Shown: positions 4,448 through 31,867, counted from the first letter of the stretch. The stretch: 42,735 nucleotides of DNA from Kofleriaceae bacterium (GCA_024762925.1 JANTGM010000046.1:1-42735); one strand, 5' to 3'. The notes: generated by a model not told the origin, from the letters alone. Numbers and translations are program-made.

Positions 4448-5686
4448 ATGTCGAGGCGCCGATCGCAAGCCACCTTTCCCGCGGGTCAAATCAAGGTTGT
4501 TCTCTTTGAGGGCATCCACAACTCGGCAAAGACATTCTTCGAGCGCACTGAGTTCACTGTCGTTGAAGTGAGCGGTGCGCTCCCTGAAGACGAGCTCATC
4601 AAGCATTTGGCGGACGCCCACATTGTCGGCATCAGAAGCAAGACACAGATCACCGCCAAGGTACTTGAGAGCGCACCGTTGCTGCTCTGCGTTGGCTGCT
4701 TCTGCATCGGGACCAACCAGGTCGATCTCGTAAAGGCCAACTCCCTTGGCATTCCCGTTTTCAATGCGCCGTTCTCGAATACGCGAAGTGTTGCCGAGCT
4801 AATTATCGCCGAGATTGTGATGCTTGCGCGTGGGCTTGGTGACCGCGTGAAAGAGCTGCACGAACACAATTGGAACAAGTCTGCCGCGGGCTGTCACGAA
4901 GTGCGTGGCAAAACGGTTGGCGTGGTTGGCTACGGCCACATCGGTTCACAGGTTGGTGTACTCGCCGAGGCCTTTGGCATGCGCGTGCTCTTTTATGACA
5001 TCGCCAAGCGCCTGCCGATGGGCAACAACAAGAGTGTCGATAGCCTCAACACTTTGCTCTCACAGTCCGACTTCGTTACGTTTCACGTTCCGGCAACCCC
5101 TGAGACGCGGGACATGATCCAAGCTGAACACTTGGCGACCATGCAAGCTGGAAGCTATCTGCTCAACGCAAGTCGCGGGTCTGTCATCAATTTGGAAGCG
5201 CTTGCAGACGCAGTGAGTTCTGGACACATTGCAGGAGCCGCGATCGATGTCTATCCAAAGGAGCCAAGGTCCAATGGTGGGGGCTTTGAGTCACCTCTTG
5301 TCGGTCTCCCAAACATCGTTCTAACGCCTCATATCGGCGGTTCTACGGAAGAAGCGCAGGAGTCCATTGGTGAGGAAGTAGCTGCTTCTTGTACGGGTTT
5401 CGTTTCCCAAGGCAACACCAGTACGGCTGTGAATTTTCCCCACATCGAGCAACAGTGGCGCCCGGACCTTCACCGTGTCCTCAACGTGCATCAGAACGTG
5501 CCGGGAGTTATGGCAGAGATCCTCTCGATTCTTGCCGATCACAACGCCAACATTCACGCGCAACAACTTGGCACCGATGACACGATTGGCTACTTGGTAA
5601 CCGATTTGGATCGATCGGTTTCTGACGATGTGAAAGCTGCGATTGCGGCCCTGCCAACGAGCATTCGGACTCGGATTCTTTACTAG
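4448..5686 (+). CDS. serA: D-3-phosphoglycerate dehydrogenase
   Basis: This 412-residue enzyme oxidises 3-phosphoglycerate to 3-phosphohydroxypyruvate with NAD, the first step of serine synthesis in the cytoplasm. Length and sequence follow the E. coli type (about 410 residues, short form with ACT domain). Key features are the IGTNQVD segment at 87-93, the Rossmann glycine motif G-Y-G-H-I-G at 161-166, and the catalytic triad Arg243 (NASRG), Glu272 (P-K-E-P) and His295 (TPHIGGST). A C-terminal ACT domain at about 342-412 (HVNQN-type start, ending RTRILY) normally binds serine for feedback inhibition. The ATG at 4448 fits the family start. The VanZ-like gene begins about 100 bases downstream and seems functionally unrelated. 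Confidence 0.97.
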   Translation: MSRRRSQATFPAGQIKVVLFEGIHNSAKTFFERTEFTVVEVSGALPEDELIKHLADAHIVGIRSKTQITAKVLESAPLLLCVGCFCIGTNQVDLVKANSLGIPVFNAPFSNTRSVAELIIAEIVMLARGLGDRVKELHEHNWNKSAAGCHEVRGKTVGVVGYGHIGSQVGVLAEAFGMRVLFYDIAKRLPMGNNKSVDSLNTLLSQSDFVTFHVPATPETRDMIQAEHLATMQAGSYLLNASRGSVINLEALADAVSSGHIAGAAIDVYPKEPRSNGGGFESPLVGLPNIVLTPHIGGSTEEAQESIGEEVAASCTGFVSQGNTSTAVNFPHIEQQWRPDLHRVLNVHQNVPGVMAEILSILADHNANIHAQQLGTDDTIGYLVTDLDRSVSDDVKAAIAALPTSIRTRILY

Positions 5687-5786
5687 TGATTGCTCCTTTG
5701 TCATTGAGTTCGCGCACTCGGGTTTCCAGCTTCCCCCACGCAATCTCTTCACAAGATTCGACCCCAACGAACCGGATCAAGCCCTA

Positions 5787-7289
5787 GTGTCGGCCTCCTC
5801 AGCTCCCCCCCTCAATTCAGAACGCCTGGTAGCGTGGGTATTTGGTGGGCTCACGTTTCTCTTTGTCCTCTTCATCGTCTACGCGAGCTGGACACCGGCA
5901 GATGGAGTCACTGGTGCTGACGCCCTATTTGACAAGCTCGAGAACCCTCGGGAGATGTTTCGCGGACACAACCTTCGAGACATTGCGACCAATGTTCTAC
6001 TCTACATGCCATTGGGAGTTTTCTTAGCGCTAGCACGCAGCGCTCGTGGTGGTCGATTCCTCAGCCTGTGGCTGCTTGGAGGCTTTGTGGTGAGCCTCAC
6101 GATGGAACTTGGCCAGAGCTTCATCGGTCGCACCCCCGACATGGTGGACCTTGTCACCAATACTACAGGCTATGTGATTGGCTATTGGATCATCGTCGCC
6201 GCAATTCGCTTCTACGGCCTCAATCCGCTGGTCTTCATGGGGTTTCACCCAGGCGAGACACAGGACCGCAAGACTCAGAGCATCGCGGCATTTCGCTTCA
6301 TTGCCGTCTGCGTCTACGTGCTCATCGCACTTCTGCCGTTTGATGTGTCGGTGAGGCTCAGCGATCTCTACGCGCAACTTCAACCTGACGAAACCGGGGT
6401 CCCAAAGATCATTCTCGATCCGCTCTACAGCCTCTCGCACTGGAAGGAGAGTGGATTGAAACTCACCTTCGAGTTGTGGGCGCTTCTTCCTGTTGCAGGC
6501 CTAACCGCCTTCCTCTCCGGCATACGCGGTCGCTTCAGCGTGTTCTCACCGATTTTCGCATGCGTAGCGGTTGCCTTCTGTTGCGAGACGGCCCAGATCT
6601 GCATTCTCTCTCGGCGCACGGATATCGCCATGCTGGGAATCGCGGTGCTTTCCGGTGTACTCGGCTGGGCCCTGGTTCGCACCTGGTTCAAGATTCAAGG
6701 TACCCATGTGCTGAGCGATGGCAGTAGTCCGCAAGTTCGGTGGCAGCAGCTGGCACTGGCAACACTTGGCTACGCCTTTATCATCGGCCTTTTTGCCTGG
6801 TCTCCCTACGAGTTTGAGACCGAGCTTGGAACCGTTCTTGAGAAGATTCGCCATGAGAGCAATCTCATCCCATTCAAGCAGCACTTTTCCACACGCAGTT
6901 TGGGCAGCGCCGTCGACATCGTAAAAGAAGCCGGGCTGTTTTTGCCGCTTGGTCTGCTCTTCGCAACGCTGCTCACCTCGATTCGACCACAGTTTCGCAG
7001 AATACAGACGTTGCTCATTACGGGCTTCTTCTGCGGTTCTATCGCTTGTTTCACCGAGCTTTCCCAAGCGTTGGTCGTGGGCCGCTACATCGATATCACG
7101 GATGTGTTCTTGGGGGCCTTCGGTGGCATCTGCGGAGCGGTAGTGTTGCAGCTTTTCGAAGTGAGGATGCACTCAGGTTCCGCCCAACAACAACACGCCC
7201 AACAACACGCCCAACAACACGCCCAACAACACGCCCAGCCTCGGCGCGCCGAAGTCTACATGCCTCCCGACTCCGAGAAAAACTCTTAG
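5787..7289 (+). CDS. Polytopic membrane protein with two VanZ-like domains
   Basis: This is about 500 residues if translation begins at the GTG at 5787; the frame is open back to 5643, but that would overlap serA and add a non-membrane leader. The protein is strongly hydrophobic with around ten membrane segments. It contains two VanZ-type modules: the first has D-I-A-T-N-V-L-L-Y-M-P-L-G and an E-L-G-Q-S/R-T-P-D-M-V-D core. The second, near the C-terminus, has P-L-G-L-L followed by E-L-S-Q-A and R-Y-I-D-I-T-D-V. VanZ proteins are linked to teicoplanin resistance in enterococci, but homologues are common in exopolysaccharide loci; the biochemical role is not settled. The cytoplasmic or periplasmic tail carries a Gln-Gln-His-Ala tandem repeat. 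The stop overlaps by two bases the stop of the convergent GT2 gene. Confidence 0.85.
   Translation: MSASSAPPLNSERLVAWVFGGLTFLFVLFIVYASWTPADGVTGADALFDKLENPREMFRGHNLRDIATNVLLYMPLGVFLALARSARGGRFLSLWLLGGFVVSLTMELGQSFIGRTPDMVDLVTNTTGYVIGYWIIVAAIRFYGLNPLVFMGFHPGETQDRKTQSIAAFRFIAVCVYVLIALLPFDVSVRLSDLYAQLQPDETGVPKIILDPLYSLSHWKESGLKLTFELWALLPVAGLTAFLSGIRGRFSVFSPIFACVAVAFCCETAQICILSRRTDIAMLGIAVLSGVLGWALVRTWFKIQGTHVLSDGSSPQVRWQQLALATLGYAFIIGLFAWSPYEFETELGTVLEKIRHESNLIPFKQHFSTRSLGSAVDIVKEAGLFLPLGLLFATLLTSIRPQFRRIQTLLITGFFCGSIACFTELSQALVVGRYIDITDVFLGAFGGICGAVVLQLFEVRMHSGSAQQQHAQQHAQQHAQQHAQPRRAEVYMPPDSEKNS
7188..7235 (+). repeat. Four tandem copies of a 12-bp unit inside the VanZ gene
   Basis: The unit CAACAACACGCC is repeated four times without change, encoding (Q-Q-H-A)4, with an extra CAA just before it. 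The repeat is in frame and a multiple of three, so gain or loss of units would change tail length without a frameshift. Perfect identity suggests recent slippage. Confidence 0.9.
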
Positions 7290-8011
7290 GTCTTGCTACG
7301 ACGAAGCTTCCACACCTGGGTAACAGCTTCCAAGAAAATATCACCGCTCATCTTCGACTCGCCTCGAGTTCGATCCGGGAAGATGATTGGTGACTCCACG
7401 ACCCGCAGACCTTGCTTGCAGGCTCGGTACTTAAGCTCCACCTGAAAGCAGTACCCTGTGCTTGAAACCTGCTCTAGGCCGATTCGCTGGAGCGCATCTC
7501 GGCGAAACCCATTGAAGCCACCAGTGAGGTCTCGCACCGGCACCTGCAGGACAACCCGTGAGTACATGCTGCCGCCCCACGAAATGAACCTCCGCGCAGC
7601 CCCCCAGTTTTCGACGCCACCACCGCGAACGCGCCGTGAACCAACAACGACGTCCGCCGAGGAATCGAGCAGCGCAAGAAACGTCGGTAGGTACTCAGGC
7701 TTGTGGGAGAAGTCCGCATCAAACTCAAAGATGAATTCATAGTCGCGCTCAAGCGCCCACTCGAACGCGGCAAGGTAGGCTTTCCCAAGGCCCTTCTTAC
7801 CCTCGCGATGCATTACGTGAATGCGCGAATCTGCGGCCGCCATTTCATCTGCAAGCGCCCCGGTTCCATCGGGCGAGTTGTCATCGACAACCAAGACGTG
7901 AGCGAGGGGAACCGCCTCGAGCACCGCAGGAACAATGAGCGGCAAGTTTTCCCGTTCGTTGAACGTCGGAATGCAAATCACGGCCCCGGCACCTTTTCTT
8001 GGGTCTGCCAT
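7286..8011 (-). CDS. GT2 glycosyltransferase, polyprenol-phosphate mannosyltransferase (DPM1)-like
   Basis: From the ATG at 8011 the product is 241 residues; in-frame alternatives are ATG 8026 and TTG 8053, and none has a clear ribosome-binding site. The sequence is a compact GT-A domain without membrane helices: P-T-F-N-E-R-E-N-L near the N-terminus, V-V-D-D-N-S-P-D-G-T, the divalent-metal DxD in F-D-A-D-F-S-H, and G-S-R-R-V. A D-L-T-G-G-F-N-G-F-R/R-D-A-L block is diagnostic of dolichol/polyprenol-phosphate mannose synthases. It would transfer a hexose from GDP- or UDP-sugar to a polyprenyl phosphate at the inner membrane face. That donor could serve polysaccharide or glycoprotein assembly in this locus. 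It is divergent from the carrier-protein operon. Confidence 0.9.
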   Translation of the reverse strand: MADPRKGAGAVICIPTFNERENLPLIVPAVLEAVPLAHVLVVDDNSPDGTGALADEMAAADSRIHVMHREGKKGLGKAYLAAFEWALERDYEFIFEFDADFSHKPEYLPTFLALLDSSADVVVGSRRVRGGGVENWGAARRFISWGGSMYSRVVLQVPVRDLTGGFNGFRRDALQRIGLEQVSSTGYCFQVELKYRACKQGLRVVESPIIFPDRTRGESKMSGDIFLEAVTQVWKLRRSKT

Positions 8012-8102
8012 AGAGGCCAGCTTCATAGCATAGAGCGATTTGCCTAGGTTCAAGCATATCGAACGAGCCCCGATTTATGGGACACTTACACCCTTTCCAA
8101 AA

Positions 8103-8115: not shown

Positions 8116-8358
8116 GTGACCGACGTTCAAGCCATCCAGCATTTGCAAGCCTACTTCGCCAAAGAACAGGGAGCCAAAGACCTGGCACCTGATGATGGTC
8201 TTCTCAGTAGCGGACTGCTCGACTCCCTCGCCATCGTCAAGCTTCTGAGCTATCTCGAAGAGGAGTTCGATGTCGAAATCGATGACTCCGACTTCGATCC
8301 GGAGAACTTCGAGACCATTGCCTCGATTGCAGCCCTAATCAGCACACCGAGCGCCTAG
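8116..8358 (+). CDS. Acyl/peptidyl carrier protein
   Basis: This is an 80-residue carrier protein from the GTG at 8116. It has the four-helix acyl-carrier fold pattern, with the phosphopantetheine attachment site G-L-L-D-S-L at about 33-38; Ser37 would carry the 4'-phosphopantetheine arm. The following helix is very acidic (Glu/Asp-rich), as is usual for discrete carriers. It is the first gene of a packed operon: its stop is one base before the GTG of the dehydrogenase, followed directly by the adenylation-type ligase. This implies that the ligase loads it and the flavoenzyme acts on the thioester it holds. It is not the housekeeping fatty-acid AcpP, because no fab genes adjoin it. Confidence 0.92.
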   Translation: MTDVQAIQHLQAYFAKEQGAKDLAPDDGLLSSGLLDSLAIVKLLSYLEEEFDVEIDDSDFDPENFETIASIAALISTPSA

Positions 8359-8359
8359 C

Positions 8360-9505
8360 GTGGATTTTTCAATCACCCCGGACCAAAAAGCGTTCCGGAG
8401 ATCGGTTGCCGAGTTTGCCAAGCTCGAGCTTCAGGGTGACGTACGAGCTCGCGAGACGAGTGGCGAGTTTTTCTGGGACGGCTGGAAAACGTGCGCAGAG
8501 TTTGGAATCCAGGGCATGCCGATGCCAGAAATGTATGGCGGGCTTGGGCTCGATGTGACGACATGTCTTATCGCAATGCAAGCTCTGGGAAGGCACTGCC
8601 GTGATAGTGGCTTTCTCTTTTCGCTCAACTCGCACATGTGGACGTGCGAGATTCCCATCCTCGACTTTGGCACCGAGGAGCAAAAGTCTCACTACTTGCC
8701 GCGCATGGTTAATGGCTCCCTTGTTGGCGGTCATGCGATGACCGAACCGGGCTCTGGTTCGGATGCCTACAGCATGCGCACCACTGCAGTAAAAACAAAC
8801 GCCGGCTATGTGCTCAATGGCTCCAAGGTTTTCATCTCCAACGCTCCCATCGCCGACGTCTTGCTCATCTTCGCAAGCACCGATCGCGATCTTGGCTGGG
8901 CAGGAATCACAGGGTTTCTCGTAGAGAAGGACAACCCGGGACTTCACGTTGGCAAGCCGCTTAGCAAGATCGGGCTGAAGACGTCGCCAACCGGGGAGCT
9001 CACACTAGAAGACTGTTTCGTGCCTGAGAGCGCCATTCTTGGTCGAATTGGCCAAGGTTCGGCGATCTTCAGTGCAGAGATGGAGTGGGAGCGCTCCTGC
9101 CTCTTTGCCTGTCATCTTGGTGCGATGCAACGACAACTCGACGAGTGTGTGCAGTATGCCAAGGACAGAGAACAATTCGGAGAACCCATCGGCAACTTCC
9201 AGGGAGTCTCGCACAAGATTGCCGACATGCGGGTTCGCATCGAGCTTGGGGAGATGATGCTGCACAAAGTCGCTTGGATGAAGAGCCGCGGCAAGCGCGC
9301 ACCGCTAGAGTCCGCGATGGCGAAGCTTGTGGTGAGCGAGGCCTACATGGCCAGTAGCATCGATGCCCTCCATTTGCGAGGTGGCTACGGCTTCATGAGT
9401 GAGTACGAGGCTGACCGCGACCTGCTCGACGCTGCGGGTGGCAAGATCTACTCGGGTACTTCAGAGATCCAACGGAATATCATCGCGCGTTTCTTGGGGT
9501 TGTAG
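8360..9505 (+). CDS. Acyl-CoA-dehydrogenase-family flavoprotein, likely acting on a carrier-bound thioester
   Basis: This is a 381-residue, full-length acyl-CoA dehydrogenase starting at GTG 8360. FAD-contacting motifs are present: M-T-E-P-G-S-G-S-D at about 127-135, the K-V-F-I-S-N block near 156-161, and the C-terminal G-T-S-E-I-Q-R-N-I-I-A. In the medium-chain enzyme the catalytic base is the Glu of Y-E-G-T; here that position is Ser365 (Y-S-G-T). A Glu-Arg pair (Glu244-Arg245) occupies the helix where isovaleryl-CoA and long-chain dehydrogenases keep their base, so the enzyme should still be active. Family members with this arrangement include the prolyl-carrier dehydrogenases of pyrrole biosynthesis (PltE/RedW type). 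Sandwiched between carrier protein and adenylation ligase, it probably oxidises an aminoacyl- or acyl-S-carrier. Substrate unknown. Confidence 0.93.
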   Translation: MDFSITPDQKAFRRSVAEFAKLELQGDVRARETSGEFFWDGWKTCAEFGIQGMPMPEMYGGLGLDVTTCLIAMQALGRHCRDSGFLFSLNSHMWTCEIPILDFGTEEQKSHYLPRMVNGSLVGGHAMTEPGSGSDAYSMRTTAVKTNAGYVLNGSKVFISNAPIADVLLIFASTDRDLGWAGITGFLVEKDNPGLHVGKPLSKIGLKTSPTGELTLEDCFVPESAILGRIGQGSAIFSAEMEWERSCLFACHLGAMQRQLDECVQYAKDREQFGEPIGNFQGVSHKIADMRVRIELGEMMLHKVAWMKSRGKRAPLESAMAKLVVSEAYMASSIDALHLRGGYGFMSEYEADRDLLDAAGGKIYSGTSEIQRNIIARFLGL

Positions 9506-11122
9506 TTGGCGTTCCTCGTTCACGATCTGTTGCGCAGAAGCGCTAAGAAAACTCCCGACGCTCTCGCGGTCCAGGGGCCCAAGCAGTCGCTCACGTATGC
9601 CGAGCTCGACGCTCAGAGTGACGCACTGGCTCAGCATCTACGAGCAAATGGCGTGGCTACCGGCACTCCTGTCGGAATCGCCATGCACAAGAGCCTTGCA
9701 TCGATAGTCGGGGTCTACGGCATTCTCAAGGCAGGGGCATGCTACGTGCCCATCGATGCATTTGCTCCTGCGCAACGCAGTGCCGCAATCATCGCCAACA
9801 CCAAGCTTCGCCACCTGCTCACAACCGCAGATCGGGTCGCAACTCTAGCGACCGAACTCAAGAGCTGCGAAGAGAGTGCGACGCTTCAGCACCTCTTCCT
9901 TCCAACACCGCCAAAGGCTGGGGTTTTGGCGCCAAAAGGCACCACCTTAACGGTCTGGACTGAGCCCATCGAATCGCCCCCGCTGCCGGCCATCACGGAC
10001 ACTCATGTCGCTTATGTGCTTCACACCTCAGGCTCGACAGGCACCCCAAAAGGCGTCGCCATCACGCACCGAAATGCACTGTGCTTTGTTGAGTCTGCAT
10101 CGCAGTATTGGGAGGTATCGGCAAGCGACCGACTGTGTAGTCAAGCACCCCTTCATTTTGACCTCTCGGTCTTTGACTTGTACGTGGCAGCCCACGCGGG
10201 CGCCAGCATTGTTCTTATTCCCGAGTTCTATGCCGCTTTTCCAAAGAAGATGGCCAGTGCCATCGATAGCCACGAAATCACTATTTGGAATTCCGTCGTG
10301 TCCACACTGACTCTCATGATGGAGCGAGGCAAACCCGAGACCGCGAGTTTTTCGAGCCTCCGCTCAGTGATTTTCTCAGGCGAGGTAATGCCCGCACGAT
10401 ACTTGCGCCGCCTTCATGAGCACATGAAGTACGCTTCCTTCTTCAACGTATACGGCCAAACCGAGGCAAACTCTTCGCTGGTGTACGCGGTCGATAGGAA
10501 TGCGATTCCCGACGAAGACGACTGGAAGGTGCCACTAGGAACAACCCTGCCAAACTTCGATGTCTTCTTGGTCGCGCCCGATGGCACAGAAATAACCGAG
10601 GTAGGTGTGCGTGGTGAGCTCTTCGTTCGGGCCCATACCGTAGCCGCTGGCTATTGGGGGAACCCTGTCCTTAGCAGCGAAAAATTTGTCATGGATCCTC
10701 GCCCCGCGCAGCGAGAAAGTCGTGCATCGGTCTATCGGACAGGTGATGTTGCTTACTGGGGCGAAGATGGCAACTACTACTTTGGGGGTCGCACTGATGA
10801 CATGATCAAGAGTCGTGGCTACCGAATTGAACTTGGTGAAATTGATCTCGCCCTGCTCTCCTGTAGCGGTGTTGAGAGTGCAGCGGCTATTGCCATCCCA
10901 GACGACGAAGTTGGCAACCGAATTCTGGCGTTCGCAACGATTGCCAAGCACAGTCATCTCGATGGCAAGGCAATCCTTGCCCACTGCCGAGGTCGGGTGC
11001 CCAAATACATGATCCCAGAAGTGCTTTACCTCGAGGCGGATCTCCCGCGAACATCCACCAACAAGATTGATCGCAAGGCGCTTAGAGTTCTTGCTCAAGA
11101 GAGGCAGGAGACGAAGGAGTGA
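9506..11122 (+). CDS. Stand-alone amino-acid adenylation-type ligase (ANL superfamily)
   Basis: This is 538 residues, with a TTG start at 9506 immediately after the TAG of the dehydrogenase. All main adenylation cores are visible: A3 H-T-S-G-S-T-G-T-P-K-G (173-183), A4 F-D-L-S-V-F-D (218-224), A5 N-V-Y-G-Q-T-E (314-320), A7 Y-R-T-G-D (410-414), A8 G-R-T-D-D-M-I-K-S-R-G-Y-R (428-440). A10 has catalytic Lys520 in T-N-K-I-D-R-K. Asp219 in the A4 core is the residue that usually binds the alpha-amino group of an amino acid, favouring an aminoacyl rather than a fatty-acyl substrate. Overall resemblance is to DltA and the free-standing A domains PltF/RedM. It would form an aminoacyl-AMP and load the neighbouring carrier. 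The specificity pocket cannot be assigned with confidence by eye. Confidence 0.92.
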   Translation: MAFLVHDLLRRSAKKTPDALAVQGPKQSLTYAELDAQSDALAQHLRANGVATGTPVGIAMHKSLASIVGVYGILKAGACYVPIDAFAPAQRSAAIIANTKLRHLLTTADRVATLATELKSCEESATLQHLFLPTPPKAGVLAPKGTTLTVWTEPIESPPLPAITDTHVAYVLHTSGSTGTPKGVAITHRNALCFVESASQYWEVSASDRLCSQAPLHFDLSVFDLYVAAHAGASIVLIPEFYAAFPKKMASAIDSHEITIWNSVVSTLTLMMERGKPETASFSSLRSVIFSGEVMPARYLRRLHEHMKYASFFNVYGQTEANSSLVYAVDRNAIPDEDDWKVPLGTTLPNFDVFLVAPDGTEITEVGVRGELFVRAHTVAAGYWGNPVLSSEKFVMDPRPAQRESRASVYRTGDVAYWGEDGNYYFGGRTDDMIKSRGYRIELGEIDLALLSCSGVESAAAIAIPDDEVGNRILAFATIAKHSHLDGKAILAHCRGRVPKYMIPEVLYLEADLPRTSTNKIDRKALRVLAQERQETKE

Positions 11123-12189
11123 AGACGAAGATTCGAGAGCTGCGCCCCGAGGACATGCAGAGTTTCGCCGAACTCACAGCTTCTCGAGACAATTTGACCC
11201 GCAAGGAGTCAGATGCGCGAGCTGAGGTCGTCGAATGGGTGGCTTTTCGCAATCCGACTCGAGATGACTCCCCGCACTACTTTGTGGGGGTGCAGGGAGA
11301 CCGAGTCGTTGCTCACCTCGGTCGCATGCCCACGCTGTTTCAAATCGGTGGTACTCGCGAGATGGCCTCGTATTTTCATGATCTGTATGTACATCCCGAG
11401 CTCAGGCAGGAAGGAGCCCAAGGCTTTTTCCTCTCGATGAAGATGTATCGCAAGTGCGAAAAGGCCAGTAAGAGTTTTTCTGCGATGATCTGGACGAACG
11501 AGATTAATATAGCGCTCCAGAAGGCTCGTAAGTACAAACAAATGTGGACCGACAAGCGCGTGATGGTCTTGGGGCTGAGGCAGAAAATTGAGAAGCACGT
11601 ATCGGGCACTGCTGCGGTTCCTGCGGTGAAGGCGGCGCGTGCCTTCATTAGCGCGGGAATTTGGGCCAACAACCTGCGCCTGCGCACGAAAGCGCGGGTA
11701 GAGCGGATTGAGAACTTCGATTCGCGTTTTGACATCCTTAGCGAGAGAGCCGCTCCGAGAATTGGTATCTGCCCGCACAAGAGCAGCGAGTATTTGAACT
11801 GGAAGTATGCGCATCGGCCTCATCTGGACTTTGCAGCATTTGCACTTCACGACGAAGCCGGGCAACTCAGCGGCTTCTGCGTCGTCATCAACCCCGATGA
11901 AACCCACACCGGCTCGATTGCCGAGCTCCTTGTTGTTGATAACGATCGCCCGGGAATCCATGCGCTGCTAGAGCGAGCAGTGCGACATCTAGAGAGTGTT
12001 GGCGCCGAAAGAATCGAGGCGGTTGCCACCAATCCAATCTACAGCCAAGCGCTACACGAACGCCTCTTTCGGCGTGTAATGCGGGTGCCACTCTTCTTGG
12101 CGAAACCGGAAGCTTCACAACATCAGAACTTACTTCTCAGCCCAAGCAATTGGCACATGGGACTCGGCGACTCAGAAGGCCCATTCTAG
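11119..12189 (+). CDS. GNAT-fold acyltransferase, terminal gene of the carrier cassette
   Basis: This is 356 residues. The GTG start at 11119 overlaps the TGA of the ligase (GTGA), and AGGAG at 11106-11110 is a good ribosome-binding site. The N-terminal half is a GNAT domain: the Y-F-H-D-L-Y-V-H-P strand is followed by the pyrophosphate-binding R-Q-E-G-A-Q-G turn at 96-102. The C-terminal part (about 215-330) looks like a second, more degenerate GNAT-like module. GNAT enzymes move acyl groups from CoA or carrier-protein thioesters to amines or hydroxyls. Translational coupling to the ligase suggests it offloads the carrier-bound group, perhaps onto a sugar nucleotide or lipid-linked glycan. 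Acceptor unknown. Confidence 0.85.
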   Translation: MKTKIRELRPEDMQSFAELTASRDNLTRKESDARAEVVEWVAFRNPTRDDSPHYFVGVQGDRVVAHLGRMPTLFQIGGTREMASYFHDLYVHPELRQEGAQGFFLSMKMYRKCEKASKSFSAMIWTNEINIALQKARKYKQMWTDKRVMVLGLRQKIEKHVSGTAAVPAVKAARAFISAGIWANNLRLRTKARVERIENFDSRFDILSERAAPRIGICPHKSSEYLNWKYAHRPHLDFAAFALHDEAGQLSGFCVVINPDETHTGSIAELLVVDNDRPGIHALLERAVRHLESVGAERIEAVATNPIYSQALHERLFRRVMRVPLFLAKPEASQHQNLLLSPSNWHMGLGDSEGPF

Positions 12190-12310: not shown

Positions 12311-12988
12311 TTGACCGCTCTTCTTCTGCTGCTCGCGGCCATTGGGGTCTATGCCATAGGCACCCGAACGATTGGCAAGTGGGATGGTGGTTTGACACGT
12401 CTTGGGCAAAGCTATGGGCTTCTATTGGAAGCGCCCACCGACGGCGAGAAGAACCGACGAGCTGGAGCGATTCTCGGGGTTGAGCTTCGACTCTGGAGGG
12501 AGACCAACACCTTCTCGCCAGAACAAAGCGGCCGTACGCGTCTTCGAATCGAGGCGCTCGACAACTCTGTTGCGTGGTCCTGTGCCTTCTACAACAAGCA
12601 TGCCGCTGTGCCCAAAGTTGGCACCGAAGTAGCGATTGACGACCCTGTCCTTGGGCGCCACGCCAGATGTGTATCCACAGCGCGGCACGATCCGAACGAG
12701 GGTCTCTCAGAAGAAGTACGACTACAACTATTACAGTGGTTCACTCCGAAGAGCTTTCGACTTCAAAGGCATCTCGTGCGGTGGGTACGCATTGGCGAAG
12801 GCCTCATTGAAGTCGACGCTGTCGGGCACGTCTTTACGGAGAAGTATGTGGAGCAACTGCTGGCGGAGGTTGTTGGTTTCGTCCTAGCCCTTCGAGGCAC
12901 GCCACTGTGTGGAGAGCCACTTGCCGCTCTCCGATCCTCACGTCTCCCGATTGCGCGTGCCCTTCCCAGTAGGTCCGACAAGGACTGA
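12311..12988 (+). CDS. Hypothetical membrane-anchored or secreted protein
   Basis: This is about 225 residues from a TTG at 12311, starting with a hydrophobic segment (T-A-L-L-L-L-L-A-A-I-G-V) that could be a signal anchor. The remainder is a mixed alpha/beta soluble domain with Cys residues (Cys91, Cys119) and no family I recognise. The start is uncertain: a 38-codon frame beginning GTG 12198 ends in a TGA that overlaps this TTG (TTGA), so the true N-terminus could differ. It lies just downstream of the GNAT gene in the same direction and is probably part of the same transcription unit. It converges with the beta-barrel gene, only 40 bases away. Confidence 0.6.
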   Translation: MTALLLLLAAIGVYAIGTRTIGKWDGGLTRLGQSYGLLLEAPTDGEKNRRAGAILGVELRLWRETNTFSPEQSGRTRLRIEALDNSVAWSCAFYNKHAAVPKVGTEVAIDDPVLGRHARCVSTARHDPNEGLSEEVRLQLLQWFTPKSFRLQRHLVRWVRIGEGLIEVDAVGHVFTEKYVEQLLAEVVGFVLALRGTPLCGEPLAALRSSRLPIARALPSRSDKD

Positions 12989-14444: not shown

Positions 14445-15932
14445 TTGTCTCTCGCTAGCACAGCAATAATCGGCGCCGTATGGATGGTGGTCACCAGGCT
14501 TGGTGCGCGCCTCGTCGGATTGCTCGGAACTCTCGTCATCACCCGCTTCCTCTCGCCTGAGGTTATGGGGGAAGTCGGTGTCGCAGTTGTTGCGGTCTTG
14601 ACAGCACAGTTCGCATCCGACTTTGCTTTTGGCCAGTACATCGTCGTCAAATCAAAAGACGATCCGGGTGCGGTCTTTCATGCGTTCTTCTTTAACCTGA
14701 TCTCCACCATTTTGGCGGCTGCGACGCTGCTTCTTCTGGCGGGCCCATTGGGAGACTTGCTCGGCGCCGAAGAAATGGAGCGCTATCTCCCGGTCATGGT
14801 GCTCTCCATGGTTTTTGAGCGCATCGCACGGATCCCGGAATCGATTGCCCTTCGCGAGCTGCGCTTTAAACTCTTCTCGGTTGCTTCTGCGGTCAGCGAG
14901 ATGGCCTACGTTGGCGTTTCGCTTGGCATGGCTGCTGCTGGCTATGGCGGCGATTCCATCGTCTGGGCCAATGTCGCGCAATACGGCATCCGCTTCTTGT
15001 GGCTTGGTGGCGCTGTCGAACGTTCGCTTTGGTTCCACCCGGTGCGCATTACCTGGCGGCAAACCAAAGAGATGTTCCGTTTCGGTATTCCTCTTGCCGT
15101 TGGCAACGTGGCTCACTACTGTTCTACGAGCTGGGACAGACTCGTTGTAACGAAGCTCTTCGGAACCAGCGTGCACGGAGTCTATGCGCTAAGTAAAAGT
15201 CTTAGTTCGGTACCAGCGGACAACATCGGCGATGCGGTTGCCGATGTGCTCATGCCCTCGTTTGTCCGCATGGGTCCAGAGGAAGCTCGTGTCGCTGTTG
15301 TGAGAGCGTGTCATCTGGTCGCTGTCGTCGTGTATCCAATGGCGGCGGGGCTTGCGGCCGTCTCCCCCACCCTTGTCGCCGCACTCTTCAACGCAGAATG
15401 GGCAGGCATCGCCACGCCGCTCACCATACTCGCAGCTGTTTCACTGATTGACCCGCTTGGCGACACGATGGCGTCCTACCTAAAGGCTCGAGACATGCCT
15501 TGGGCTGTGATGGTGGTGCAGATTTCCTATCTAGGAGTTATTCTGGGATCCACCTTCGTGCTTGGCTACTACTATGGACTCTATGGTTCCTGCTTCGGTG
15601 TCGGTGTTGGCATGCTGTACCGGGCCTTGGCTGCCCTATACGCCGCGCATTACTATGACCAGGTGCGCATGGGTGAGATGCTGCTTGGCCTTGTGCGTGT
15701 GGCGCTGGCTGCCGCACTCATGGCGGGTGCGGTTGTGGGAGTCCGCATTCTCTTTACAAGCTCTCTCGAGAGCCCCGCTCTCGCCCTGTGCATTGAGATT
15801 GCAATTGGCGGGATTGCCTATATACCCGCGGTATTTCTCTGCGCCACCCCCATTGCTAAGGGTGTGGTCACCTGGATTCGCGATCGCCGAGCTGGCATCC
15901 ACGATGACGATGACGACGATGACAGCGAGTAG
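14445..15932 (+). CDS. Wzx-like polysaccharide flippase (MOP superfamily)
   Basis: This is 495 residues with about 12-14 membrane helices. The N-terminal helix with W-M-V-V-T-R-L-G and the L-G-T-L-V-I-T-R-F-L-S-P-E segment are typical of the PST/Wzx branch of MOP exporters, which flip undecaprenyl-linked repeat units across the inner membrane. A mid-protein F-R-F-G-I-P-L-A-V-type block and the S-W-D-R-L-V-V-T-K-L-F-G loop are also characteristic. The start is a TTG at 14445; no better start is visible without losing the first helix. The C-terminus ends in seven consecutive Asp codons (15903-15923) after a basic segment. The next gene follows after five bases, so the two form an operon. Confidence 0.9.
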   Translation: MSLASTAIIGAVWMVVTRLGARLVGLLGTLVITRFLSPEVMGEVGVAVVAVLTAQFASDFAFGQYIVVKSKDDPGAVFHAFFFNLISTILAAATLLLLAGPLGDLLGAEEMERYLPVMVLSMVFERIARIPESIALRELRFKLFSVASAVSEMAYVGVSLGMAAAGYGGDSIVWANVAQYGIRFLWLGGAVERSLWFHPVRITWRQTKEMFRFGIPLAVGNVAHYCSTSWDRLVVTKLFGTSVHGVYALSKSLSSVPADNIGDAVADVLMPSFVRMGPEEARVAVVRACHLVAVVVYPMAAGLAAVSPTLVAALFNAEWAGIATPLTILAAVSLIDPLGDTMASYLKARDMPWAVMVVQISYLGVILGSTFVLGYYYGLYGSCFGVGVGMLYRALAALYAAHYYDQVRMGEMLLGLVRVALAAALMAGAVVGVRILFTSSLESPALALCIEIAIGGIAYIPAVFLCATPIAKGVVTWIRDRRAGIHDDDDDDDSE

Positions 15933-20714: not shown

Positions 20715-21767
20715 CTAGAGCTTGTCGAGGCCAAAGCGCGCGAGGGTCTTGCGAATGCTCTCTTCGCGCTCCCGAGGCAAACGGCGCAAGGCTTGGCTCG
20801 CCATTCGAGCAGCAGTGCGAGCCGTCGACTGGGCTATTGGCGGATGCAGTGGCGCAAAATCTCCAACGACGGGCCGAGTGTCGAGATCCAAGAAGCCGAC
20901 AGTTCGAAATCGGCTCCGGTTTGCTGCGAGAAATTCGCAGAGCGCTTCAAAGCGACGAATCACCGACCAGTCTGGGTGCGCAAAGTCCTGTGGCAGTTTT
21001 CGATCGCGCAAGAGCTCAAAGGAGTGCGAGACAATCACAAAGCTGCGCCACGCTTCGGAGTAGGCCTGTTGCATAGCCGCCTGCATTTCCAACGCAGAGA
21101 CCGCGCACAACTGAGCGGGCCGATAGTGGCCTGGATAGTCGCGAAAGCTCGACACCGGATACTCCCAAAGGCCTTCTAGTTGCCGAGGCTGCACCAACAT
21201 CTCACCAATGTCGAGGCCACACTCACTCTCGAGGTATGAGTAGTTGTAGCTTGAATCGTATCGAATGCCGCATTGAGCAAGCGCCTCGAGTGTTTGAAAG
21301 TCTGCTCCAAAGTTTCCTGCACGATAGGCATTCACGTTGTGAGCCCCCGCTGCACGCAAGTTTGCGAGCGCCGTTTCAATCACTACAACTTGGTCTTCAC
21401 GACTCAGCTCTCGAATATTATACGCGCGAGTGCTCCCCAGCAGCGGATCAGACATTTTCTCAAACCACTCTGTGTGAATGTGAAGCTGAACCTCCGAGCC
21501 AGTCTCCTGAATGTCCTCTACAATTTTTGCGAGCGGAGCAATACCGATCTCGCAGGCCATGAGAGCCTCGATAAAGAAAACACCCTTGAGTCCATGTCGC
21601 TTCAGCAGATCAACCTGGTACTTGATGCCAAAGTCGCCATCTGGGGTTGCTCCATAGACATCCCGCGCTAGATCTCCCGCCAGCCCATCGCGCTTCCAAT
21701 CCTCACACCGGGGCCATGCCTCTACATCGACGGTGATCATCACCTCAAGTGGATCTCGCGAAGCCAT
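20715..21767 (-). CDS. Polysaccharide deacetylase (WalW-like, CE4-type)
   Basis: This is 350 residues without a signal peptide. The N-terminal I-T-V-D-V-E-A-W (Asp14) is the metal/catalytic Asp region in the variant form seen in polysaccharide-deacetylase proteins of lipopolysaccharide and exopolysaccharide loci. L-H-I-H-T-E-W (His96, His98) supplies metal ligands, and Y-R-A-G-N-F at 148-153 is the conserved Arg motif. A late S-H-S-F-E-L-L block carries the general-acid histidine. These enzymes remove N-acetyl groups from GlcNAc-like residues on glycans or precursors. The C-terminus is a basic helical extension (about 310-350). The arylamine acetyltransferase-like gene lies just upstream on the same strand. 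Confidence 0.88.
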   Translation of the reverse strand: MASRDPLEVMITVDVEAWPRCEDWKRDGLAGDLARDVYGATPDGDFGIKYQVDLLKRHGLKGVFFIEALMACEIGIAPLAKIVEDIQETGSEVQLHIHTEWFEKMSDPLLGSTRAYNIRELSREDQVVVIETALANLRAAGAHNVNAYRAGNFGADFQTLEALAQCGIRYDSSYNYSYLESECGLDIGEMLVQPRQLEGLWEYPVSSFRDYPGHYRPAQLCAVSALEMQAAMQQAYSEAWRSFVIVSHSFELLRDRKLPQDFAHPDWSVIRRFEALCEFLAANRSRFRTVGFLDLDTRPVVGDFAPLHPPIAQSTARTAARMASQALRRLPREREESIRKTLARFGLDKL

Positions 21768-21816: not shown

Positions 21817-22677
21817 CTACTGGGGTAGCAGGGAGTGCTTCCCTGCTAGCGCCATTGCTCGCCTTACCCGCTGCTGCCAGATCAGCCCCCGCGCACGAAG
21901 CTTCTGGAAGAGCTGCTCGGACTTGTTGCTCGGCATCCTTGGCAGGTCGATTCCAAAGGCTTCACGTAGGATCGTCAAGTACTCGCCGTCGGAACCAATG
22001 GTCCTCGCGGGATGGCCCGTCAACTTGTAGGAACCATCGATGAGAGACGCAGTTCCAACCTCGGTTTGTAGGACGCAGATTCGGGCCCTAGTGAACCAAG
22101 AACGGGTACAGGTTTGATGGTGCCTGCACATTGGCTCAAACTCCGACATCTGCCGCGAGACAAGGGAAAGTTCGTAGCCTTTGGACTCTCCATATACGTT
22201 CTCAACTTCGTAAAGCAATTGATCGCCAAGCGAAGCGAGTCGGTAGCTCGCCTCGGAATCGGAGCGAAGAGAGCCAGCCTTCAGTGCCAACGGAAGCGTG
22301 GAGCCATCGCCAAATCCCACATCCACTAGGAATGGCGCGCCGTCGCACCAGACTCGCAGTGCCATATGATCGAAGTTAGCACCAATGCTCGCCGCTCGAA
22401 TCACCCGCGAGGAGAGAAGCTCGACCGAGAATCCAATTTCACGAAGAAGCCAGGCAAAAAGCCCATTGAGCTCATAGCAAAAGCCTCCTCGCTTCCGTCT
22501 CACTATCTTGCGGAACAGGCTCGCGGTATCAAGCTTCAGCGCGACCCCCAGATGGATGTCGAAATTCTCGAATGGCACGGACCTCAGATGTGCTTGGCAC
22601 AAGGCCTCAAGACACTTGAGATTGGGTTGGGCGTGGCCGTGAAAGCCGATCCTGGCCAGGTAGAGGTCCTTGTCCAT
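21817..22677 (-). CDS. nat: Arylamine N-acetyltransferase (NAT) homologue
   Basis: This is 286 residues, normal length for bacterial NATs. The Cys-His-Asp triad is intact: Cys67 in R-G-G-F-C-Y-E, His104 in F-D-H-M-A-L and Asp119 in L-V-D-V-G-F-G-D. The N-terminal P-F-E-N-F-D-I-H motif is also diagnostic. Classical NATs move acetyl from acetyl-CoA to arylamines by a ping-pong mechanism, while relatives such as RifF act as amide synthases releasing carrier-bound chains. It lies directly upstream of the deacetylase gene with about 50 bases between them and probably shares its transcript. Its substrate here could be an amino sugar or an acyl-carrier product, but that is speculation. Confidence 0.93.
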   Translation of the reverse strand: MDKDLYLARIGFHGHAQPNLKCLEALCQAHLRSVPFENFDIHLGVALKLDTASLFRKIVRRKRGGFCYELNGLFAWLLREIGFSVELLSSRVIRAASIGANFDHMALRVWCDGAPFLVDVGFGDGSTLPLALKAGSLRSDSEASYRLASLGDQLLYEVENVYGESKGYELSLVSRQMSEFEPMCRHHQTCTRSWFTRARICVLQTEVGTASLIDGSYKLTGHPARTIGSDGEYLTILREAFGIDLPRMPSNKSEQLFQKLRARGLIWQQRVRRAMALAGKHSLLPQ

Positions 22678-22788: not shown

Positions 22789-23901
22789 TTAGCTTCGGCT
22801 GAGTGCAGCTCGGTAGAGCCCCAAGTACTCGTCCGCCATTCGATCTGCCGAGTAGTCCCGAAGCACCCGCTCGCGTCCGGCAAGAGCGAGCTTGGCGGAC
22901 TCGGCCGGATTGTCGCGTAAGCGAAGCAGTGCTGCAGACATCGCTTTGTTGTCACCTGGAGGAACCAGCACGCCACAGACGTCCGTCTCAATAACCTTGG
23001 AGATACCACCAACATCGGTACTCACCACCGGAACTTGCGTTGCCATCGCCTCGAGAATCACGAGAGGCAGACCTTCGCTCAGAGAGGGAAGAGCAAACGC
23101 ATCGAGTGCCGCGATGATGCGATGTGCGTCGTTGCGTCGCCCGAGAATGTGAATAGCATCAGGGTGAGCACTTCTCGCCCGCGCGTCTTGGAGGGCAGTC
23201 ATCTGATCGCCATCGCCGACAATCACAAGCTGCAGTTTCTCCCCCAAGTTGGCTTCCAAGGCGACAATGAGCGCAGCCTGGTTCTTGTTCGTGTCGCATC
23301 GGCCAACGGTTCCAACAACCCAGGCGTTCTCCGAAATGCCAAGTTCGCGACGGACAGCTTGCCTAGCCTGGGAGTCTGGACGGTGCACGTCAAGACGGAT
23401 CCCGTTTGTAATGATCCTGATGCTATTGGGAAAGGGATAGGCCCACTGTTCTCTCGCGTGCTCAGCAGTTTTCTTAGATACGGCGACGAAGCTATGCACA
23501 AAGGGAGATCCAAAGCGTCGCAGGATTCGCCCCATCCGACTCACCAAGTGTCCCTCGCCATGCTTGGTGTGAACCACAACGTGCCCCGAAAGCCTGGCAG
23601 CGGCGGCGGCATACACAAGCGGCGGCGTGTTGTGGGTGTGCACCACATCGACAGCGAGCCGGTGAAGCACACGTGCCACGTTCCGGGGCAGTCTCCAGTC
23701 CAACCCTGGCTTTTTTGCAATCACCACAACCGGGATCTCCGCCTCGGCAAAGGCCCCAGCAAGCGGACCACCACCCGGATCACCAGAAAGCGAGATCACC
23801 AAGACCTCGTGGCCTTTTGCGCGCTGAGCCGTAGCGAGGTCGAGTGCTACTCGCTCGGCGCCTCCCATCCCCAACGAACCCAAGACGTGTGCGATTTTCA
23901 T
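22789..23901 (-). CDS. GT4-family glycosyltransferase
   Basis: This is 370 residues from the ATG at 23901 (M-K-I-A-H-V-L-G). The frame extends to 24039, but that would overlap the divergent glycosyltransferase, and the family starts with exactly this strand. GT-B signatures are G-M-G-G-A-E-R near the N-terminus, H-T-H-N-T-P-P, and V-G-T-V-G-R at the start of the second domain. The E-x7-E nucleotide-sugar motif appears in S-L-S-E-G-L-P-L-V-I-L-E-A-M-A. It is a retaining GT4 enzyme, probably cytoplasmic or peripheral at the inner membrane, adding a sugar to a lipid-linked repeat unit. It is divergent from the next GT4 gene, with 74 bases between starts that must hold both promoters. Confidence 0.92.
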   Translation of the reverse strand: MKIAHVLGSLGMGGAERVALDLATAQRAKGHEVLVISLSGDPGGGPLAGAFAEAEIPVVVIAKKPGLDWRLPRNVARVLHRLAVDVVHTHNTPPLVYAAAAARLSGHVVVHTKHGEGHLVSRMGRILRRFGSPFVHSFVAVSKKTAEHAREQWAYPFPNSIRIITNGIRLDVHRPDSQARQAVRRELGISENAWVVGTVGRCDTNKNQAALIVALEANLGEKLQLVIVGDGDQMTALQDARARSAHPDAIHILGRRNDAHRIIAALDAFALPSLSEGLPLVILEAMATQVPVVSTDVGGISKVIETDVCGVLVPPGDNKAMSAALLRLRDNPAESAKLALAGRERVLRDYSADRMADEYLGLYRAALSRS

Positions 23902-23975
23902 GATGCATCTGCGCTTCGCGAAATCGAGCGCTCCCAGCGATTGTGTTCGCAGGTCTAACACGTGACGATCGCATC

Positions 23976-29511: not shown

Positions 29512-30660
29512 CTAACGCTTCGCTAGGCGATTGCGAACTTCGTTGCGCACGAGTTTACCCAGGCCGACGCCCGTCATACTCAGCTTCTGCAACTTGCTGC
29601 GCAGGGATGGCCGTGAACGTGAGAGGCGCATCAGTGGCCTCACGTTGTTGGCAAGCTGCATCTTGTATCGGGTAGTCCCTGCGAGAAAATCGTAGTGGCT
29701 GTAGCCTGCCTCAATCGATTCACGGATGGCGCACACGTGAATCACCAATCCAGCGCGCACTTTCTTGGGCAGGTCCAGCTTGCGACCACTTTGATAGAAG
29801 CGAACCTGATTGTTCCAAATGATGCTGTAACTGGCGGCCACAGGTTCGCCCTCCACTTCAAGCCAGTTCAGCCAGAGCGCTCCAGCATGAAACAGCTCCC
29901 GCATGGTCTTTCTGTGGAACTCATGAAAGAGCGGCGAAGCAAAGGCGCCACCGTGGCCAACCTCTTGCCAGCGTTCCTCGTGTAGCGCAGAGAGCATCTC
30001 CAACGCAGACTCGAGTTCTTCTTCGCGCTCAACACGCTTGAGCACTGGCGGCCCGCCCGCCCACTTCTCCCAAGCCTTGAGCGAACGACGGATGAGGTAG
30101 CGTCGCGACGAGGGAAGCGAAGCGAGGTAGTCGTCCCATGACGATGGCAAGGTCACAAATGGTGCGCCACCAATCACTTCGTAGAGCGTAGCCTTGCCCA
30201 TCGCTCTGGCGAGTAGGGGTGAAATCACCGCCTCGCTGCTCATTGCCGTGAGATCAATCTCATCCCATGGCGTTATGAGATCACCCTCAAGCGCTTCTCC
30301 AAATGCATTCGCAACGGCTTGCTCATAGCCGCGCTCTGCCAACAGGCCGATGTACTCCGAGCAGGTCTCGTGCTCTTCGTCTTCGCCAGAGCCGAGGAAC
30401 TCAATGCGCTGCATGCTCAGCGGACCAACCCTATGCTTGCACATCGGAGCAAGGCCGACCAAACGTCCATCGAGGTGCATTGCTAAGCTGCACAATTCGC
30501 GACCTTGCTCCTTGCCATACACGCGCCACCAGTTGATGAGCCAAATTGGCCCCTGCATGACCTCGTTGGTTGCGGACTTGGCCAATAGCTCTCCCCAGGG
30601 CTCGCGAAGAGCCTCGAGCTCACTCGAAGTCGAAATGAGTGAAGTTCTTAGAGAAGACAC
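29512..30660 (-). CDS. FemAB/CelD-like GNAT acyltransferase
   Basis: This is 382 residues, GTG start at 30660-30658. The central and C-terminal parts (about 170-340) match the acetyltransferase-6/CelD (BcsL) fold often encoded in exopolysaccharide loci. There is an L-I-R-R-S-L-K-A-W-E-K block, an aromatic W-L-N-W-L-E-V strand, E-G-E-P-V-A-A-S-Y-S-I, and a Y-D-F-L-A-G-T-T-R-Y-K signature near the end. These enzymes move acyl or aminoacyl groups onto sugars or peptides. The G of the start codon is the last base of the CTAG end of repeat copy B. Before the insertion this gene was apparently coupled to the deacetylase gene by a TAGTG stop/start overlap. Confidence 0.87.
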   Translation of the reverse strand: MSSLRTSLISTSSELEALREPWGELLAKSATNEVMQGPIWLINWWRVYGKEQGRELCSLAMHLDGRLVGLAPMCKHRVGPLSMQRIEFLGSGEDEEHETCSEYIGLLAERGYEQAVANAFGEALEGDLITPWDEIDLTAMSSEAVISPLLARAMGKATLYEVIGGAPFVTLPSSWDDYLASLPSSRRYLIRRSLKAWEKWAGGPPVLKRVEREEELESALEMLSALHEERWQEVGHGGAFASPLFHEFHRKTMRELFHAGALWLNWLEVEGEPVAASYSIIWNNQVRFYQSGRKLDLPKKVRAGLVIHVCAIRESIEAGYSHYDFLAGTTRYKMQLANNVRPLMRLSRSRPSLRSKLQKLSMTGVGLGKLVRNEVRNRLAKR

Positions 30661-30833
30661 TAGTGTCGGGTCCAGAATGGTTGATCGACGATCGCGATGG
30701 GAGTTCGCTCACTGGCAAGGCGCGAACAACGAGCTTGCTGGGGCAAGTGAGGCGCTGAGCAACGCAGAGCCGAAGGCGTCCAGAGGGCGAAAGGCCGAGC
30801 GAGTGCGAGCAAGAGTTTTGAATCCGACACTAG
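30660..30833 (+). mobile_element. MITE-like palindromic repeat, copy B (diverged, full length)
   Basis: This is a 174-bp relative of copy A with CTAG at each end and the same inverted-terminal design: CTAGTGTCGGGTCCAGAA at the left, and CTAGTGTCGGATTCAAAA read from the right on the other strand. The conserved core (GCAAGGCGCGAA, CTTGCTGGGGCAAG, GAGCAACG, GCCGAAGGCGT) is shared with copies A and C, but the arms differ more. It separates the deacetylase gene from the acyltransferase gene. Its left CTAG contributes the acyltransferase start codon G and its right CTAG the deacetylase TAG stop. Confidence 0.85.
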
Positions 30834-31867
30834 TATCCCAACTGTGGCACTGCGAGAACGCTTCGAAAGAACGAGCCTTTGTACTCGGGTTCGATCGCTA
30901 TGCGTCTCACATCGTAGCAATCGGGTTCCCCCCAAAGAGGATGTGCTCCTGTGGCATTGGTGAACCCCACCTTGTAGCCAGCATCCCGAAGAGCCTCTTT
31001 GATGGGCCCAAGAGAGGTGAGCGAGCGCCCGATTGGATACGAGATCGAATCTACCGTCTCACCAAGTTCACGTTCCAAGTCTTGCTTGGCTCCTGCTAGC
31101 TCACTTGCGAGTTCTCCATGAGGCACAGTCTGCAAAGCTCGGTGACTTCGCGTATGAGACTGCACATCCATGCCCATCTTTCGGAGGGCGCGAACATCAT
31201 CCCACGTCATCACAAACCCTTCACACATCTCACGCTCAATATCCCGGTTCCATGGAACGCCCAACGCATCCGCCATGCCATCGAGCATGCGCTCGACATC
31301 CAGATCGAACTGAATCTTCATGAGCTGCAAGATCGTTGCAAGTGCCCCTGCACGGTCCCCTTCCAAATCGAGTTCCAAGTGAGCGGGATACGCAAGCGTA
31401 ATCTTCCCCTGCCCGGGCTTGGCATGGTGAAAGAGGTAGTTGATTCGGTCCCACCAGTAGATGCGGCGTTCTTCGATGTAGGAGGTCGCCATGAAGAAGA
31501 CACCCTTCATGCCGTTGTCGTTGAGAATTGGCGCAGCAACCTCAAGGTTATCTAGGTAGCCGTCGTCAAAGCTCACCACTGCGGCGTTCTTAGGAAGCGC
31601 CTCTTCACCAGAGAAGTGCGCGCAGACTTCGTCGATCCCAACAACGTTGAAGTACTTGCCGAGCGTCTTCAGCTGAGCATCGAACGCTTCTGGGCCAACA
31701 TCTATAACGCCTCGGTCAAACGGGTACACCTCGGGTGCATCAAACACACGGTGGTAGGTGAGAACCGTTAGATAGGGACTTCCAAAGCGGGCACGCGCCC
31801 GCAAAACACCTTCTATTAGGCCAACCCGATCGAGAAGAGAACACAAGCGCTGGCGAGAAGAAGACAC
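30830..31867 (-). CDS. Polysaccharide deacetylase (NodB/CE4 domain)
   Basis: This is 345 residues with all CE4 landmarks. T-Y-H-R-V at 37-41 precedes V-S-F-D-D-G-Y-L-D-N (Asp101 catalytic, Asp102 metal ligand), V-Q-S-H-T-R-S-H (His238, His242 metal ligands) and the S-Y-P-I-G motif. There is no signal peptide, so it may act in the cytoplasm or on the inner face of the membrane. The sequence pattern is close to deacetylases of exopolysaccharide loci that contain exosortase-like systems. The stop codon is formed by the CTAG end of repeat copy B. The gene was probably the upstream partner of the FemAB/CelD-like gene. Confidence 0.93.
   Translation of the reverse strand: MSSSRQRLCSLLDRVGLIEGVLRARARFGSPYLTVLTYHRVFDAPEVYPFDRGVIDVGPEAFDAQLKTLGKYFNVVGIDEVCAHFSGEEALPKNAAVVSFDDGYLDNLEVAAPILNDNGMKGVFFMATSYIEERRIYWWDRINYLFHHAKPGQGKITLAYPAHLELDLEGDRAGALATILQLMKIQFDLDVERMLDGMADALGVPWNRDIEREMCEGFVMTWDDVRALRKMGMDVQSHTRSHRALQTVPHGELASELAGAKQDLERELGETVDSISYPIGRSLTSLGPIKEALRDAGYKVGFTNATGAHPLWGEPDCYDVRRIAIEPEYKGSFFRSVLAVPQLGY

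Follow-up and report, generated by a model that had tools for sequence, protein, structure and literature searches.

The window, the whole 42,735-nucleotide stretch of Kofleriaceae DNA that was analysed (GCA_024762925.1 JANTGM010000046.1:1-42735), contains four genes that encode, in order, a free-standing carrier protein (PCP), an ACAD-family aminoacyl-carrier dehydrogenase, a free-standing adenylation ligase and a tandem-GNAT N-acyltransferase (Table 1). An earlier, sequence-only reading had described these genes as packed without spacing, which is exact to the base: a single base separates the PCP stop codon (TAG, 8356-8358) from the GTG start of the ACAD gene at 8360, the ACAD stop codon (TAG, 9503-9505) abuts the TTG start of the ligase gene at 9506, and the ligase stop codon (TGA, 11120-11122) overlaps the GTG start of the GNAT gene at 11119 in the tetranucleotide GTGA. 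For the PCP, the GTG at 8116, with GAGG upstream, is preferable as a start codon to the ATG at 8077, and the phosphopantetheine attachment residue Ser37 shows no variation across 10 aligned cassette carriers. The same PCP-ACAD-ligase-GNAT order, for which that reading had suggested a neighbourhood search, is found in two further genomes of the window's genus and in Polyangiaceae (L081, L164), with junctions in the recurring cassettes that are mostly of 0-5 bp or a 4-base overlap. Given that the order recurs in other genomes, the four-gene arrangement is not a matter of chance. The order is rearranged in Woeseiaceae and Desulfobulbaceae; in both, and also in Ignavibacteria, a GNAT gene adjoins the cassette.

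Table 1. Features of the window, with positions counted from its first nucleotide
Feature	Position	Strand	Evidence and remarks
MopE-motif protein (second)	683-2062
Protein with two VanZ domains	5643-7289		C-terminal HAQQ repeat run; SerA-VanZ-GT2 order conserved in L079
GT2 glycosyltransferase, directly upstream, divergent	7286..8053	-	PF00535 108 bits
PCP, free-standing carrier	8116..8358	+	PF00550 39.9 bits; attachment Ser37 in GLLDSL
ACAD-family aminoacyl-carrier dehydrogenase	8360..9505	+	Acyl-CoA_dh N/M/C; catalytic Glu244; clade-specific Ser91, Glu240
Adenylation ligase, free-standing	9506..11122	+	PF00501+PF13193; TIGR01733 362 bits; pocket DLFNISVSS; relative PltF 6o6e
Tandem-GNAT N-acyltransferase, NMT-like fold, proposed off-loading enzyme	11119..12189	+	weak PF00583, 28.5 bits
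Possible 225-aa gene 3' of GNAT	12311-12988		no Pfam match; absent from that place in L078
Wzx-type flippase of neighbouring glycan locus	14484..15932	+	PF13440 158 bits
Sulfatase-family protein	15938-17920		MopE-type metal-binding motif
Polysaccharide-deacetylase-like gene, adjoins NAT	20715..21767	-	PF01522 20.8 bits, below cut-off
NAT (arylamine-N-acetyltransferase family)	21817..22677	-	PF00797 191 bits; Cys-His-Asp motifs intact
GT4 glycosyltransferase	22789-24039	-	PF00534/PF13692
GT4 glycosyltransferase	23943-25187	+	PF00534/PF13692
UDP-GlcNAc 2-epimerase WecB	25221-26357	+	PF02350; wecB TIGR00236 289 bits, above cut-off
FemAB-like (Acetyltransf_6) protein	29512..30585	-	PF13480 89.7 bits
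Polysaccharide deacetylase	30830..31747	-	PF01522 65.8 bits

Relatives of the cassette

ACAD homologues at 1e-92 occur in 25 of 379 genomes sampled from the phylum, mostly adjoining a ligase and a PCP. A class-wide search located the cassette in G335 and in three genomes each of two genera: the window's own, where these are all the genomes sampled, and one other (G584-G586). No other genus of the family that includes the window had it. A scan of ~85,000 species genomes returned 80 loci, with G335 recovered once more, and identities of 81% in Kofleriaceae, 72% in Woeseiaceae, 64% in Polyangiaceae and 56-60% in Geobacteraceae. In an IQ-TREE phylogeny of 99 ACADs, the 15 loci with re-specified pockets form one clade (support 100/99) that is hosted by Myxococcota, one Woeseiaceae gammaproteobacterium and Geobacteraceae and sits nested among cassettes with a prolyl code. 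G584 and G586 are two more members, with ligase pocket motifs as in the clade and, in G584, an ACAD with Ser91 and Glu240.

Several related loci were observed in addition. Prolyl-code cassettes outside the clade (L091-L117 and other loci) occur widely in Chloroflexota, Acidobacteriota and Planctomycetota and often adjoin hexapeptide transferases, halogenases, sulfotransferases or GT4s; pyrrole decoration of glycans is a possible role for them. The cassettes L050 (G200) and L144 carry other non-prolyl codes, DMFKLGFGS and DMQYGAFVC, and re-specification may therefore have arisen more than once. Elsewhere in the genome of the window, L055 (G000:C204, 266-6448) is a second carrier-ligase cassette, which combines a GNAT relative, an NAD-synthase-like gene, an asparagine synthase, a ligase (28.5% identical) and a PCP without an ACAD, and L075 (G000:C22, 8254-10083) holds a further ligase paralogue (34%) adjoining a 78-aa gene. 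The Geobacteraceae loci L082 and L085-L090 have an arginase-family gene between PCP and ACAD plus a GNAT of 209-216 aa, Geomonas/Citrifermentans cassettes have an additional Cys-rich 218-aa protein, and two recoded cassettes share a protein of 366-376 aa without a Pfam match (L122:4721-5851 and L083:20044-21141, 37% identity).

Specificity residues of the ligase and the dehydrogenase

The sequence-only reading took the ligase to be of the amino-acid type and named a fatty-acid-specific pocket as the outcome that would speak against it. The ligase scores above the cut-off (317) of the amino-acid adenylation model TIGR01733 and retains Asp235, and both findings support the first assignment and reject a fatty-acid ligase. 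Broad AMP-ligase and ACAD homology would allow a fatty-acid ligase to act with a beta-oxidation-type ACAD in lipid or fatty-acyl modification, but this scenario is scarcely credible given the adenylation model, Asp235 and the best matches of the ACAD, which are prolyl-carrier dehydrogenases: its closest PDB entries are AnaB (4irn, 396 bits) and PltE (312 bits), well above fatty acyl-CoA dehydrogenases. Its top NCBIfam models are PigA (435 bits, cut-off 500) and prolyl-PCP dehydrogenase (419 bits, cut-off 650), both below cut-off, and its Glu244 aligns with the catalytic Glu of PltE/AnaB, the residue altered in 6af6, and is conserved in all rows checked. PltF (6o6e) is the closest single-domain structure to the ligase, so that the activities of the PltF/PltE/PltL type that had been proposed are borne out. 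Judged by sequence, the three-gene part is placed in the prolyl-carrier oxidase superfamily, with AnaB, PltE and PltF as its closest solved relatives, and the cassette descends from proline-to-pyrrole machinery.

The proline analogy holds for superfamily and activities but not for the specificity residues. The nine-residue adenylation pocket, read from an alignment of 86 ligases with PltF (DLLYLALVC) as reference, is DLFNISVSS in the window and does not match the prolyl pattern DL[LF]YLALVC that most of 67 related cassette ligases carry. The window and its closest relatives have DLFN[ILH]S[VIG][ST]S, with DMFNLAMSS in one member. Tyr278, Ala301 and Val330 are present in 67/67 of the other cassette ligases and Cys331 in 65/67, whereas the clade has Asn278 (13/13), Ser301 (12/13), Ser or Thr330 (13/13) and Ser331 (13/13); the flanking sites His173, Met197, Gln318 and Ala321 are also fixed or near-fixed clade differences (13 versus 67 sequences). 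In the ACAD, Ser91 together with Glu240 is present in all 15 clade members and absent from the 84 others, which have Ala91 (83/84) and Ser or Ala240 (83/84), AnaB and PltE being Ala91/Ser240. By the general fold of ACADs, position 240 would lie one helical turn ahead of the catalytic base and position 91 would correspond to the acyl-pocket region of medium-chain ACADs.

As read from these alignments, both substrate pockets have been rebuilt together across the clade. If the carried substrate had changed, the ligase and the downstream dehydrogenase would be expected to change jointly, and that substrate is most likely an amino acid other than proline. It is possible that the module is an ordinary prolyl-to-pyrrolyl one despite its code, with pyrrole-2-carboxyl put on a glycan, as the proximity of the ACAD to AnaB, PigA and PltE and the nesting of the clade would allow. 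Two points make this unlikely: first, four ligase pocket residues and two ACAD positions set all, or almost all, clade members apart from the prolyl cassettes. Second, the ACAD falls short of both equivalog cut-offs (435 of 500; 419 of 650). For the non-proline substrate preferred here, a small polar alpha-amino acid or a hydroxylated proline is a tentative guess. The A-domain codes of free-standing ligases are poor predictors of substrate. The combination of Asp235, Leu236 and Asn278 with Ser301 resembles Cys/Ala codes (PMC12283262), which serves as a hint only, and no substrate is claimed from it. The arginase-family link seen in Geobacteraceae was considered as a clue and rejected; the genome of the window has no arginase-family homologue at 1e-5, and we therefore make no claim of a basic substrate.

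The free-standing PCP, A-type ligase and Glu244-type ACAD are shared with PltF/PltE/PltL (pyoluteorin), RedM/RedW/RedO and PigI/PigA/PigG (prodiginines) and AnaB/AnaC/AnaD (anatoxin-a); ChmJ/ChmH/ChmI (chalkophomycin) is a prolyl-carrier oxidase module of the same composition (PMC10849742). The window differs from the prolyl-carrier modules in its ligase pocket (DLFNISVSS, theirs DLLYLALVC) and its ACAD residues (Ser91/Glu240, theirs Ala91/Ser240), in having no polyketide or peptide partner and in the GNAT of the operon. A precedent for such a change is LmbC (lincomycin), the pocket of which, according to two reports, was re-specified from an L-proline ancestor (PMC3874040, PMC5730197). A ligase and carrier that serve cell-envelope polymers are also known from the exosortase-A ligase (TIGR03098) and DltA/DltC (D-alanylation), but these systems have no ACAD, and membership in either was rejected on scores far under the cut-offs (TIGR03098 308 bits of 592; DltA 259 of 560; DltC 30.7 of 52 and 37 of 68).

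The GNAT acyltransferase and its linkage to the cassette

The predicted structure of the GNAT (AF2, pLDDT 91.6) has two GNAT domains in one chain, in an N-myristoyltransferase-like arrangement. Its similarity to NMTs (Foldseek E ~1e-13; VIA Z 22.6 over 309 residues to 1iyl) is one of fold only and does not imply function. The CoA loop (R/QxxGxG/A) reads RQEGAQG in the window, QASGAG in G584 and is canonical in L098, L125 and L081.

That the cassette ends in a GNAT transferase had been noted previously, and this link is conserved across loci: a GNAT or NAT lies within 2.5 kb in 13 of 14 non-window clade loci compared with 4 of 84 other cassettes (Fisher p 6e-12, a value that ignores kinship). 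Because the first GNAT count was seeded from clade sequences, an unbiased Pfam control count was made on 97 neighbours of other cassettes, in which GNATs occur in at most 4 and hexapeptide transferases, Trp halogenases, GT4s and sulfotransferases stand near the top. In Geobacteraceae cassettes two other GNAT families replace the window-type GNAT. The cassette of G335 is without an adjoining GNAT, a homologue being encoded elsewhere in that genome, and beyond G335 and G051 a phylum-wide search for this GNAT gave weak relatives only. In the Polyangiaceae MAG locus L081, a DNA photolyase gene (L081:13859-15289) begins 15 bases past the GNAT.

Given that glycan loci commonly hold GNATs, that motif A is canonical in the nearest relatives outside cassettes and that the G335 homologue lies away from the cassette, the GNAT might be an independent acetyl-CoA sugar N-acetyltransferase, with the three-gene module serving something else. 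This is very unlikely in view of the translational coupling through GTGA, the co-occurrence in Myxococcota, Gammaproteobacteria, Desulfobacterota and Ignavibacteria and the altered R/QxxGxG loop of the window. As the proposed off-loading enzyme of the module, the GNAT would take the acyl group directly from the PCP; it could also use acyl-CoA as donor.

Glycan neighbourhood and proposed pathway

The cassette had been described as embedded in a polysaccharide locus, and glycan genes are indeed adjacent, but they do not form one operon with it. The divergent GT2 gene has a homologue at the corresponding position of both L078 and L079 (82-85% identical), while the flippase, deacetylases, GT4s, WecB, FemAB-like protein and NAT lie 2-20 kb downstream. 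Homologues of the flippase and of the deacetylase at 30830..31747 are found near the cassettes of L098 and Woeseiaceae, and the deacetylase-NAT-GT4 order (20.7-24 kb) is conserved in G428. The Woeseiaceae order is FemAB, GNAT, NAT, PCP, ACAD and ligase, with the NAT homologue thus placed between GNAT and PCP and with a deacetylase, a Wzx flippase and GT4s within ~15 kb. A FemAB homologue adjoins the cassette in L122 and another is present in L085. The NAT, which is single-copy in both genomes examined, is probably an associated acyltransferase of the cassette; NAT-family amide synthases such as RifF take carrier-bound acyl groups. The FemAB-like protein is possibly an associated acyl or aminoacyl transferase, and the deacetylase-like protein from the gene adjoining the NAT might unmask the amine that accepts the acyl group.

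From this neighbourhood, a glycan, namely an amino sugar of the adjacent polysaccharide, is the likely acceptor in the window's genus. The attachment to a glycan that had been suggested earlier is plausible there and in Woeseiaceae and some Geobacteraceae (the L085 and L090 cassettes sit in amino-sugar polysaccharide clusters), but glycan genes were not found near the cassettes of G335, Polyangiaceae and Geomonas. Among cassettes generally, glycosyltransferases are modestly enriched (near 25 of 83 loci and 2 of 20 controls). This raises the possibility that the same re-specified module serves a GNAT whose product is an unattached small molecule (an N-acyl amine), the glycan genes being mere neighbours, given that the cassettes of G335, of Polyangiaceae G584/G585 and of Geomonas are instead accompanied by a Ser/Thr kinase, by FIST and photolyase, and by arginase-family and purine permease genes, respectively. 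Such an outcome is somewhat unlikely, as the cassettes of Woeseiaceae, of L085 and L090 and of three genomes in the window's genus have glycan genes close by, and NAT, FemAB, deacetylase and GT families recur beside the cassette across phyla.

In the pathway proposed for transfer to a glycan, the ligase would activate an alpha-amino acid, probably not proline, and load it onto the PCP, where the ACAD would desaturate it with Glu244 as the base. The oxidised acyl group would then be passed on to an amine by the tandem GNAT, possibly assisted by the NAT and FemAB-like proteins linked to the cassette; in the window's genus, this amine most likely sits on an amino sugar of the neighbouring Wzx-type polysaccharide, where a deacetylase would have freed it.

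In clorobiocin biosynthesis, CloN2/CloN7-type enzymes transfer the acyl group to a sugar hydroxyl. A carrier-bound oxidised amino acid that ends up on a sugar is common to the proposed pathway and the CloN3/N4/N5 pyrrole module, in which the ACAD is CloN3 (PMC10849742), but the transferase in the window is a GNAT, perhaps with a NAT, and in clorobiocin the substrate is proline and the product a small molecule rather than a polymer. In the lincosamide synthetase, CcbC/LmbC and a carrier provide an amide bond between amino acid and amino sugar by NRPS-type parts; that step is reported to differ in having no ACAD on the carrier and a different condensing enzyme (PMC4351081, PMC3874040, PMC5730197).

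The operon is real and conserved, and its carrier oxidation module is coupled to a GNAT. The general inference of the earlier reading, that a dehydrogenated amino-acid-derived group is made on the carrier and passed to a glycan or its precursor, stands, with the glycan as a likely acceptor. With families, catalytic residues, operon, clade, joint pocket re-specification and GNAT linkage read from sequence, the locus may well encode a module for carrier-tethered amino-acid oxidation and N-acylation with a likely non-proline substrate. More tentatively, the clade could represent a monophyletic, newly recognised module family, jointly re-specified off proline, that delivers unsaturated aminoacyl groups to GNAT/NAT N-acylation of surface glycans. 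For antibiotics and pigments, thiotemplated amino-acid oxidation is an established step, and it has been treated as proline-to-pyrrole chemistry. That both gatekeepers changed together in one clade speaks for a new substrate; the GNAT-type partner, constant across several phyla, speaks for a new use, which may be on surface polysaccharides. With its four genes, the operon is of a size that allows reconstitution in vitro. Searches of the open-access literature brought up no account of a glycan modification of this kind and, if the proposal is true, glycan N-acylation by re-specified modules would be a modification without prior description.
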